Below, piece after piece: positions 1 to 2,137 of a DNA stretch of 64,000 nucleotides; position 1 is the stretch's first letter, and every line of letters starts with the position of its first letter. The notes below the pieces were generated by a model. It was not told where the DNA came from and did no database searches. It saw only the letters and a program-made list of their open reading frames with translations. The position numbers were made by a program, and so were the translations under genes. This stretch comes from a virus, in the IMG/VR virus record IMGVR_UViG_3300044641_003190, positions 1 through 64,000 of that record, one strand, 5' to 3'.

Positions 1-68
1 ACGTCTGAGATAGCAGACTTATTTGGAACGTGTGATTTACACACTTGGATTATTACATTTGAGTTCAT
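1..68 (-). CDS. partial small protein cut by the left edge
   Basis: A leftward reading frame opens with ATG at 68 and stays open for 22 codons to the edge of the window. An AAGGAG ribosome binding site lies 5 bases upstream of the ATG (minus strand). Its leader and promoter copy those of the gene starting at 1642, which supports it as a real gene. Function cannot be judged from the visible part. Confidence 0.55.
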   Translation of the reverse strand, partial: MNSNVIIQVCKSHVPNKSAISD

Positions 69-85
69 TAGAACTCCTTTCTAGT

Positions 86-102
86 TTGAGAACCTTTCTC
101 AA
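86..102 (-). promoter_or_regulatory. leader hairpin A
   Basis: A perfect 7-bp inverted repeat (TTGAGAA / TTCTCAA) with a 3-base loop lies between the promoter and the ribosome binding site of the gene at 1-68. The same position in the leader of the gene at 1442-1642 holds a different 7-bp hairpin, so the pairing is kept while the bases change. Confidence 0.6.
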
Positions 103-118
103 CTTTCTTTATACTAGA

Positions 119-140
119 AGTATAACACCTACCACTGACA
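119..140 (-). promoter_or_regulatory. leftward promoter A
   Basis: Minus strand: TGTCAG (140-135), 10 bases, then a TATACT -10 box (124-119). The same TGTCRG-N10-TANNNT layout occurs at 1694-1715 and 1386-1407. There is no good -35 box at normal spacing, which fits an activator-dependent promoter. A CRP-like site is centred 67 bp upstream of the -10. Confidence 0.55.
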
Positions 141-141
141 T

Positions 142-155
142 TTACTGACCAGTAA
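142..155. promoter_or_regulatory. palindromic operator TTACT-N4-AGTAA, copy 1
   Basis: TTACT-GACC-AGTAA is a perfect dyad just upstream of promoter A. The same arms with the same 4-base spacer occur at 2141-2154, and a near copy at 1780-1793. The binding protein is unknown. Confidence 0.45.
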
Positions 156-180
156 CCATACCAAAACGGACATTTGGGAT

Positions 181-196
181 TGTGATAAACCTCACA
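181..196. promoter_or_regulatory. CRP/GlxR-like site 1
   Basis: TGTGA-TAAACC-TCACA matches exactly the TGTGA-N6-TCACA consensus bound by CRP-family regulators (CRP in enterobacteria, GlxR/Cmr-type in actinobacteria). It lies centred 67 bp upstream of the -10 of promoter A, in the range of class I activator sites. Confidence 0.6.
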
Positions 197-222
197 CGGA
201 TTTTTCACGCTCAAATTTTCCA

Positions 223-238
223 GGTGATTAATCTCACA
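223..238. promoter_or_regulatory. weaker CRP/GlxR-like site
   Basis: GGTGA-TTAATC-TCACA keeps GTGA-N6-TCAC and misses one outer base. It lies about 42 bp upstream of site 1 and may act together with it. Confidence 0.4.
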
Positions 239-245
239 TCTTAAA

Positions 246-283
246 CGACACGCCCGACAGAGGCGCCTCGCTCGGGCGTGTCG
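246..283 (-). terminator. GC-rich nested hairpin, probable terminator
   Basis: A perfect 12-bp inverted repeat (CGACACGCCCGA at 246-257 with TCGGGCGTGTCG at 272-283) encloses a second palindrome, GAGGCGCCTC (260-269). It stands just downstream of the last gene of the leftward unit (312-503) and upstream of the next promoter. There is no clear U-tract. It is strikingly GC-rich for this genome. Confidence 0.55.
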
Positions 284-311
284 CCACGCCGTTGCGAGTT
301 AATTTAATTTA

Positions 312-503
312 TTAAAAATTAAACTCTAAAGAATTTGCGCCAGTTGCTTTTGCAAATCTCTCTGGGTCAAATCTCGGATTATCTTTTTCAAACATTTCAG
401 AAAACTCATCTACCAAATCGTTAAATATTGCGGGATGAATTTCATCCGAATATTGTTTTAAAATGTTAGCAGTTTCCTGATAATCTTTTCTAGTCATTGT
501 CAT
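312..503 (-). CDS. hypothetical small phage protein, 63 aa
   Basis: Acidic 63-residue protein with a helical middle (residues about 8-40) and a C-terminal stretch reading NPRFDPERFAKA. Proteins with this kind of ending are common among small conserved actinophage proteins, but I know no function. A GGAG ribosome binding site lies before the ATG at 503. The ATG overlaps the stop of the upstream gene (TAATG), so the pair is translationally coupled. It is the last gene before the hairpin at 246-283. Confidence 0.75.
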   Translation of the reverse strand: MTMTRKDYQETANILKQYSDEIHPAIFNDLVDEFSEMFEKDNPRFDPERFAKATGANSLEFNF

Positions 504-673
504 TATTTAATTCTCCTTAAAAATCTAGGAGTTTTAATTGGATACTTTTTAAAATATCTAATTGCATAAATTAAAACTGCGGCGGTGATAGCAAAGCCCC
601 AAGTAAAATCAAAGCCTGCCCAAGGTGAGTAAAAACCTAAGCCCCACTCATTTATTTCGATTGTTATTTCCAT
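503..673 (-). CDS. small one-helix membrane protein, 56 aa
   Basis: Starts at ATG 673 with a GAAAGGA site upstream and ends in a TAATG overlap with the next gene. An acidic N-terminus (MEITIEINEWG) is followed by a hydrophobic segment at about residues 24-41 (WGFAITAAVLIYAIRYF) and a basic tail (KKYPIKTPRFLRRIK). This suggests one membrane helix with the C-terminus inside by the positive-inside rule. Function unknown. Confidence 0.65.
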   Translation of the reverse strand: MEITIEINEWGLGFYSPWAGFDFTWGFAITAAVLIYAIRYFKKYPIKTPRFLRRIK

Positions 674-724
674 TAGTTAGTTTTCCTTTCGTAGTTTAAT
701 TCTATCGGTTAGCCCTGACAATTG

Positions 725-865
725 TCAAGACCTCCAAACATATCCAACAAGGTCACAAGTGCGACCCTCTAGAGTTTGCTTACAGTTTGAGTAAATCGGA
801 TCGGTTAGAATATCAAAGGACACAATACCCGAGCAGATGAGAAGGGAAGCGATTATAGATTTCAT
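725..865 (-). CDS. short secreted or membrane-anchored protein, 46 aa
   Basis: ATG at 865 overlaps the stop of the upstream gene (TAATG). The N-terminus MKSIIASLLICSGIVS looks like a short signal or anchor segment. The rest (about 30 residues) holds two cysteines (C29, C37) that could pair outside the cell. The C at position 11 is not in a standard lipobox. No family is recognised. Confidence 0.55.
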   Translation of the reverse strand: MKSIIASLLICSGIVSFDILTDPIYSNCKQTLEGRTCDLVGYVWRS

Positions 866-1053
866 TATTGCTTTCTCCCCATGATAGAGCCACCAATAGC
901 CAAGACATCACAAGCAAAGCTAACCTTAGTGCCTTTACTTAATCGGTTAGGTAATTCTTCTATGAATAACCTTACAGCGTTTTTATTGGCTAGGCTAATA
1001 TTCATTACCTCACCGCTATAAGTTTCTAATCTAACTTGGTATCCTGATTTCAT
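865..1053 (-). CDS. hypothetical protein, 62 aa
   Basis: Coupled by TAATG overlaps on both sides. Begins MKSGYQVRLETYSGEVMNISL, which reads like a small beta-rich fold, followed by a helix (NAVRLFIEELPNRL) and a basic C-terminus. Function unknown. Confidence 0.65.
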   Translation of the reverse strand: MKSGYQVRLETYSGEVMNISLANKNAVRLFIEELPNRLSKGTKVSFACDVLAIGGSIMGRKQ

Positions 1054-1214
1054 TATTTATTATCCTGTTCTATCTTATGGACTAAGTATTCAAACTTAAT
1101 AGGTGGATTAACTGAGTTTAACTCGTCTATAGTCTTAACTATATCTTTAATACTATTAGAGGTTAATGTACCTTTTTGCAAAGAGCCTTGCCAAATTGAG
1201 TAAGTTAGTTTCAT
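1053..1214 (-). CDS. hypothetical protein, 53 aa
   Basis: ATG at 1214, stop overlapping the next ATG (TAATG). A beta-hairpin-like start (MKLTYSIWQGSLQKGTL) is followed by a helix rich in I, V and K. No known family. The tight coupling in a run of four genes supports it. Confidence 0.6.
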   Translation of the reverse strand: MKLTYSIWQGSLQKGTLTSNSIKDIVKTIDELNSVNPPIKFEYLVHKIEQDNK

Positions 1215-1343
1215 TTAGTTATTCTCCTCTACATTAAAGTTATTGGTTAAAGCATTGTTTGCCTTAGTTAGGGCAAGGATAGCGTCCCTTAGACTTTTGG
1301 CTCTTTCAGCCTCTATCATTTCTTTATATTGTTGTATATTCAT
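1215..1343 (-). CDS. small helical protein, 42 aa
   Basis: ATG at 1343 with an AAAGGA site upstream; the stop directly abuts the next ATG. Residues 4-31 form one long amphipathic helix (QYKEMIEAERAKSLRDAILA), possibly a coiled coil. It is the first gene of the unit driven by promoter C. Function unknown. Confidence 0.55.
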   Translation of the reverse strand: MNIQQYKEMIEAERAKSLRDAILALTKANNALTNNFNVEENN

Positions 1344-1385
1344 TTAGTTTATCCTTTCTAGATAACTTTCATTTTGTTGTCTGTA

Positions 1386-1407
1386 AGACTATCAGACTTG
1401 ACCGACA
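1386..1407 (-). promoter_or_regulatory. leftward promoter C
   Basis: Minus strand: TGTCGG (1407-1402), 10 bases, TAGTCT (1391-1386), the same layout as promoters A and B. A CRP-like site is centred 55 bp upstream, about one helical turn closer than in A and B. It would drive the genes from 1343 down to 312. Confidence 0.45.
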
Positions 1408-1435
1408 TTATCAAGCCGACACGCATGGCGTGGGG

Positions 1436-1451
1436 TGTGATTTAGTTCACA
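1436..1451. promoter_or_regulatory. CRP/GlxR-like site 2
   Basis: TGTGA-TTTAGT-TCACA matches the CRP consensus exactly. It overlaps the stop codon of the gene at 1442-1642 and lies upstream of promoter C. Confidence 0.6.
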
Positions 1452-1642
1452 CGATTAGCGATAAGCCATTGGCTTTCGCTAGGGCTTAGGTATTTATGAG
1501 ATACGCAACCCTCTTTAGTAGAGAGTAACTCTAGATAAGCCTTACGGCTTATGTAGTTACCTACACTATTGCGAAACACTAGGCTATTGCCTGTGTTACT
1601 AGTAGCCATTGGGTGGCTAGCATCTATAATCATTTGAGACAT
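1442..1642 (-). CDS. hypothetical protein, 66 aa
   Basis: Single-gene leftward unit with its own promoter (B), leader hairpin and AAGGAG ribosome binding site before the ATG at 1642. The protein carries HPMATSNTGNSLVFRNSVGN followed by a helix (RKAYLELL) and an SPSESQWLIANRV tail. No known domain. Function unknown. Confidence 0.65.
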   Translation of the reverse strand: MSQMIIDASHPMATSNTGNSLVFRNSVGNYISRKAYLELLSTKEGCVSHKYLSPSESQWLIANRVN

Positions 1643-1659
1643 TTTGTCTCCTTTCTAGT

Positions 1660-1676
1660 TTAAGGACTTTCCTTAA
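1660..1676 (-). promoter_or_regulatory. leader hairpin B
   Basis: Perfect 7-bp inverted repeat (TTAAGGA / TCCTTAA) with a 3-base loop. It sits at the same place relative to the ribosome binding site as hairpin A, in an otherwise nearly identical leader. The stem bases differ from A in a compensating way. Confidence 0.6.
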
Positions 1677-1693
1677 CTTTCTTTATACATAGT

Positions 1694-1715
1694 ATTCTAG
1701 CAGAGGGTACTGACA
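1694..1715 (-). promoter_or_regulatory. leftward promoter B
   Basis: Minus strand: TGTCAG (1715-1710), 10 bases, TAGAAT (1699-1694). About 80 bases here align with the promoter and leader of the gene at 1-68. A CRP-like site is centred 65 bp upstream. Confidence 0.55.
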
Positions 1716-1753
1716 TTTTGGGGTGTTTTTCGGGCGTGTCGGGAAATTATTTT

Positions 1754-1769
1754 TGTGAGTTACATCACA
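1754..1769. promoter_or_regulatory. CRP/GlxR-like site 3
   Basis: TGTGA-GTTACA-TCACA matches the CRP consensus exactly, centred 65 bp upstream of the -10 box of promoter B. Confidence 0.6.
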
Positions 1770-1779
1770 TAGGGGGGTA

Positions 1780-1793
1780 TTACTGAGTAGTAT
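1780..1793. promoter_or_regulatory. palindromic operator TTACT-N4-AGTA, copy 2
   Basis: TTACT-GAGT-AGTAT differs by one base from the exact dyads at 142-155 and 2141-2154. It lies between the leftward unit B and the rightward promoter at 1910. Confidence 0.35.
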
Positions 1794-1909
1794 GTCCGAT
1801 TTGTGCCCATTATATGTGCTCGCTATTCGAACATGTGTTCGGTCTCAAAATAGTGCATCATACAAATTAAAAATTTATTAACATTTTGGGTATTTTAGAT
1901 CGGGAAGGG

Positions 1910-1939
1910 TTGACATAAAATTTACCTTGCTGTTATACT
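1910..1939 (+). promoter_or_regulatory. rightward promoter
   Basis: A perfect TTGACA at 1910-1915, 18 bases, then TATACT at 1934-1939 (TTATAC with 17). No clear reading frame follows for about 280 bases, so the transcript is either a long leader or a non-coding RNA. Confidence 0.6.
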
Positions 1940-2137
1940 GGAGGAAAGGTTTTTGGGGGTTTACACTAAGACTCAATACACCAAGTAATTCTTGGGAGTT
2001 TAGTGAAGCTTCTCTCTTCTCACCATAAGAATTTAATTTATGGGGGGAGGGGGGGTTTTGCTAAAATCTAATTCCCAAGTATAAGTATAGAATACAAGAT
2101 AGAAAAGATAAAGCTTTAATATAATAAATACCTATAT

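Follow-up and report, generated by a model that had tools for sequence, protein, structure and literature searches.

Phased CRP/GlxR-type palindromes upstream of small-gene promoters in an uncultured phage group: probable targets of a host regulator

Introduction

Does an uncultured freshwater phage place a set of its own genes under the cAMP-responsive regulator of its host? CRP-type activation is a textbook mechanism for cellular genes, and the question is raised for a phage by the left end of IMG/VR record IMGVR_UViG_3300044641_003190, where operators of the type TGTGA-N6-TCACA lie upstream of leftward promoters. The window analysed here is the first 64,000 nucleotides of this record. We give a probability of about 80% to the reading that a CRP-family regulator of the host (GlxR/Crp) binds three palindromes in the window and thereby activates three leftward promoters of a small-protein module. 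No description of a phage group with phased CRP sites spread through a gene module was found in the open-access literature.

Palindromes and leftward promoters of the record

The original prediction placed exact copies of TGTGA-N6-TCACA at 181, 1436 and 1754, and all three were found, at positions 181-196 (palindrome A, TGTGATAAACCTCACA), 1436-1451 (palindrome B, TGTGATTTAGTTCACA) and 1754-1769 (palindrome C, TGTGAGTTACATCACA); as palindromes they are given no strand. No other exact copy exists in the 74,534 bases of the full record, and the reversed control pattern is not found there at all. Allowing up to two mismatches gave 24 matches against 36.5 expected and, since degenerate CRP-like matches are therefore not enriched, only the exact palindromes carry weight. 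Palindrome B overlaps the 3' end of an open reading frame (1442-1642); it was also considered as a terminator hairpin and was ruled out by inspection because its stem is 5 bp long and no U-run follows.

Each of the three exact palindromes is located upstream of one leftward promoter of the form TGTCRG-N7-TG-N-TANNNT, all three promoters being on the minus strand. Promoter A (119-140) consists of TGTCAG (140-135), the TG of an extended -10 and TATACT (124-119), promoter B (1386-1407) of TGTCGG (1407-1402), TG and TAGTCT (1391-1386), and promoter C (1694-1715) of TGTCAG (1715-1710), TG and TAGAAT (1699-1694). The record contains WTGTCRGN7TGNTANNNT at these three promoters and nowhere else, and no copy of its reversed control. 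The distances from palindrome centre to the centre of the -10 box are 67, 55 and 65 bp, as had been claimed. With +1 placed 7 bases past the -10 box, the palindrome centres fall at about -76.5 of promoter A, -64.5 of promoter B and -74.5 of promoter C on these inferred start sites. The proposed sharing of a TGTCRG-N10-TANNNT layout was borne out at all three promoters; the accompanying statement that they lack a normal -35 has to be amended, as each has a -35 of degenerate sequence together with the TGN of an extended -10.

A fourth promoter, TGTCAG-N10-TAGAAT, was observed on the minus strand at 699-720. It has no exact CRP site and carries a consensus-like TTGACA -35; being in the same gene cluster, it lends itself naturally to comparison with the CRP promoters. 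The weaker copy proposed at 223 is present with one mismatch (223-238, no strand) and is probably not functional. An arm base of this site is lost in all five relatives that align there (L140-L144, 88-90% identical; GGTGATTAAAATCACG) and no promoter lies in phase with it; as a mismatched, unconserved and out-of-phase site it was ruled out as a functional operator.

Conservation and spread among viral contigs

The five relatives L140-L144 are about 89% identical overall. Wherever they align with the palindromes at 1436 and 1754, all ten arm bases are kept and only the N6 changes, with up to three or four of the six central bases differing. Palindrome A is unaltered in L141-L144. The gaps between palindromes and promoters, together with the promoters, are 95-100% identical in the relatives except for promoter C in L144, and promoters A and B are 100% identical in L144 and L142.

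A motif search of related phages, proposed along with the original prediction, found the layout to recur widely. The composite search pattern (palindrome, 20-50 bases, TGTCRG-N10-TANNNT) was matched in at least 120 loci of viral contigs, with up to 7 copies per locus among the matches listed, compared with 13 loci of one copy each for a control in which a scrambled palindrome preceded the same promoter. The number of loci depends on the composite pattern by which they were retrieved; nothing in the search prescribed helical phase, the N6 spacing or the extended -10. In 41 related records the palindrome by itself was counted 210 times and its reversal once. Counts of TGTGA-Nk-TCACA in the scanned loci gave 384 unique copies for k=6 and 0-3 for every other k between 0 and 15, and among all 5-mers TGTGA was the top arm (384 copies), the runner-up having 32. 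Of 665 similar promoters, 226 (roughly one third) have no CRP site; CRP therefore supplements a promoter type that is phage-wide and does not define it.

No near-identical DNA was found among named phages. Four Streptomyces phages of the Stanwilliamsviridae were observed to contain 0-1 palindromes each and no TGTCRG promoters, so that these soil relatives are without this system.

The binding protein and the host

A Crp-type helix-turn-helix domain (PF13545) was found in none of 41 phage records, several of them fragmentary, and in 14 of 14 control genomes. Because of this absence, the protein that binds the palindromes is presumably that of the host. Motif identity is no proof of the binder, and the same activation could come from some other regulator that recognises a CRP-like site, either a phage-encoded protein with a different fold or a cAMP-independent member of the host Crp-Fnr family. 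The extra TGTCRG and TGTC boxes of these promoters do suggest a further dedicated factor. However, the motif is the textbook CRP/GlxR consensus with a strict N6, which together with the lack of a Crp-type domain in the phage records makes a different regulator unlikely, and the host GlxR/Crp protein is the candidate that we prefer.

The capsid and portal proteins are 62-64% identical to those of Streptomyces Stanwilliamsviridae phages, and a related capsid is present in 19 of 42 module-bearing records; we take these uncultured phages to be relatives of the Stanwilliamsviridae. A WhiB gene is carried by 15 of the 41 records; WhiB and an Lsr2-like protein both point to an actinobacterial host. 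The GC content is about 37%, and a low-GC freshwater actinobacterium is the probable host. Low GC and kinship suggest hosts such as the Nanopelagicales, which are low-GC freshwater actinobacteria (PMC10202952). A scan of genome contigs for prophages that would reveal the host returned only one contig of a Phycisphaerae MAG and one of a cyanobacterial MAG; both were rejected as host leads, being probably mis-binned phages.

Helical phasing and proposed mechanism

The gap between palindrome and TGTCRG was observed to peak at 18, 28, 38, 48/49, 59/60 and 70 bp, and the peaks at 18, 59 and 70 lie outside the gap range that fetched the loci. The period is 10.3-10.4 bp over 302 unique matches, and a non-redundant set (n=176) gave R=0.75 with p ~3e-43. 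Across the whole collection, the in-phase gaps of 37-40 bp occur in at least 120 loci compared with 10 loci for the out-of-phase gaps of 42-45 bp. Palindromes with one mismatch show the same phase as the exact ones. A half-turn class makes up 32 of the 302 matches, with a gap of 33-34 bp and a centre at about -69.5.

In E. coli, class I CRP sites are centred at -61.5, -71.5, -82.5 and -92.5. The original prediction of a class I-like helical spacing is strongly supported by the comparison as regards the period of about 10.4 bp; the register is a different matter, as the first in-phase position is found at about -64.5, 3 bp beyond the E. coli -61.5. The main series on the inferred start sites (about -64.5, -74.5 and -84.5) is displaced upstream by the same 3 bp, which may reflect either our placing of the start or a property of the actinobacterial polymerase.

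From these positions we infer the following mechanism. Host cAMP-CRP/GlxR would bind at about -64.5, -74.5 or -84.5, sites one helical turn apart, and would contact RNA polymerase from one face of the helix, probably through the alpha C-terminal domain, giving a class-I-like activation. The predicted target promoters combine an extended -10 (TGN-TANNNT) and a weak -35 with TGTCRG in the spacer. It is plausible that expression of the module would then depend on the carbon state of the host, as had been suggested.

A poorer -35 was expected in promoters with a CRP site and this expectation failed, with 3.46 matches to the -35 in CRP promoters and 3.13 in the CRP-less ones; the -35 boxes of the CRP promoters are no poorer and so do not show the mark that dependence on an activator should leave. 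A weaker -35 does not strictly define a class I promoter; its lack here weakens the case for dependence. The -35 result would also suit a host CRP whose main role is that of a repressor or silencer and which keeps the small genes switched off under certain metabolic conditions, and cAMP-CRP is known to repress the pir, dam and recE promoters of bacteriophage T1 (PMC6737242). The positions of the sites speak against repression: the CRP centres start at about -54 and run upstream from there, none lies on the promoter core, and their phasing is the geometry of activation. We consider repression improbable, more so than a different regulator. That the repeats are replication-origin or packaging elements and not transcriptional is very improbable, for although DnaA boxes (TTATCCACA) are enriched about 15-fold within 150 bp of CRP sites in relatives (L020-L139), no DnaA box is present in window positions 1-2000 and the palindromes stand at fixed, phased distances from single promoters that are followed by a ribosome-binding site and a start codon.

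Comparison with known systems

The arrangement resembles E. coli class I promoters such as lac in its exact TGTGAN6TCACA upstream of the promoter, its steps of a helical turn, its sigma70-like -10 and its weak -35. It differs in its first position, about -64.5 and not -61.5 on an inferred start, in its small half-turn class, in the TGTCRG spacer element and the upstream TGTC boxes, and in being found in phage genomes. With the actinobacterial GlxR/Crp regulons (GlxR of Corynebacterium; Crp of Streptomyces, PMC10033298) it shares the operator type and the probable host phylum, whereas its targets are phage genes and the host protein is only predicted.

Bacteriophage T1 is the closest phage precedent that we found, in that host CRP acts on the phage's own promoters, as is predicted here (PMC6737242). 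T1, however, is an E. coli phage in which CRP represses a few promoters as part of a lysogeny switch, whereas in the present group many phased upstream sites are distributed through a small-gene module, in a manner consistent with activation.

Should host activation be correct, these phages would couple their infection of freshwater actinobacteria to the cAMP/carbon regulator of the host, or would simply profit from an activator that is abundant there. As the pattern suggests, an entire group of uncultured phages may switch on part of its programme by way of a metabolic regulator of the host. In addition, hundreds of natural promoters are at hand for asking which CRP spacings work in actinobacteria, and TGTCRG in the spacer calls for explanation as a new promoter feature.

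The TGTCRG element and upstream TGTC boxes

A logo of 280 promoters reads AAA-TGTCAG-nCC...TGC-TAtAAT. When the two bases that follow TGTC were not specified, TGTCAG or TGTCGG was nevertheless found in 473 of 504 promoters. The TG of the extended -10, which is absent from the search pattern, is present in 70-86% of promoters.

Promoters A, B and C each have one further TGTC-type box at a preferred position, all on the minus strand. Promoter A has TGTCCG read leftward at 167-172, starting at about -60, promoter B has GTGTC read leftward at 1418-1422 (about -43) and promoter C has GACAC read leftward at 1736-1740 (about -53), inside CGACACGCC. The positions found in related promoters are -53/-54 for GACAC, -43 for GTGTC, -60 or -51 for TGTCCG and -56 for CGGACA. 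They are fixed relative to the promoter, not to the CRP site. Among the 504 related promoters, -60 is the commonest position of TGTCCG, and GACAC at -53/-54 is seen in 66; the others have TGTCCG or neither.

In Streptomyces the word read by WhiA is GACAC (PMC3781837), and by hypothesis WhiA could be involved at the GACAC boxes. The resemblance to the co-activation by WhiA and WhiB in Streptomyces (PMC3781837, PMC4850268) lies in GACAC/GTGTC words at preferred promoter positions and in WhiB being encoded in most of the long related phage records; unlike that system, the spacing and flanks seen here (CGACACGCC, TGTCCG, TGTCAG) exceed GACAC. We tentatively put forward, as a possibility considerably less probable than host CRP activation itself, a composite system in which phased host CRP upstream acts with a second factor that reads the TGTC words, both the spacer TGTCRG at -28 and the boxes at about -43, -51 or -60. 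Such a factor might be host WhiA with a phage WhiB, or a new phage protein, and when bound at the spacer it might recruit RNA polymerase to the extended -10.

The element CGACACGCC/GGCGTGTCG, which contains GACAC, was observed to be enriched about 18-fold near CRP sites, at 90 of the 120 loci listed (L020-L139). Its three exact copies in the window (246-254, 275-283 and 1733-1741) all fall inside 246-1741.

The small-gene module

The claim that these promoters serve small-protein genes is supported by the module of small genes downstream, all on the minus strand in the window. Promoter A precedes a gene that starts with ATG at 68-66 and is truncated by the left end of the record (1-68). Promoter B has as its first gene an ORF of 42 aa (1215-1343), which by eye is like the first gene past a CRP promoter in the related module of L169. 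It is followed leftward by ORFs of 53 aa (1053-1214, resembling by eye a module gene of L169/L170), 62 aa (865-1053), 46 aa (725-865), 56 aa (503-673) and 63 aa (312-503). The last of these (phrog_19432) is homologous to module genes of the relatives, and its comparison with named phages gave weak matches in unrelated phages only. Promoter C precedes an ORF of 66 aa (1442-1642).

Several ORFs of the window have counterparts in L169 and L170, as judged by eye. The module is composed of many ORFs of 40-140 codons along with a small number of longer ORFs (DUF932, an Api92-like protein and a fragment of an Lsr2-like protein), and almost none of its genes has an assignable function. We infer that the module may be an early one.

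A GC-rich inverted repeat, CGACACGCCCGA...TCGGGCGTGTCG, is present on the minus strand at 245-284, with a fold of -31.6 kcal/mol and a z of -3.25, and is the probable terminator of the leftward operon. The same repeat also consists of two inverted CGACACGCC elements and may act as a terminator, an operator or both.

A small hairpin just upstream of the ribosome-binding site is common to the 5' leaders of gene A (about 62-112) and gene C (about 1638-1687), both on the minus strand. Its stems are apparently compensating (TTGAGAA-AGG-TTCTCAA and TTAAGGA-AAG-TCCTTAA), with a folding z of only -1.7. Furthermore, a DUF932 protein of about 335 aa was observed behind a CRP promoter in both related modules, at 9433-10437 in L169 and at 10061-11068 in L170.
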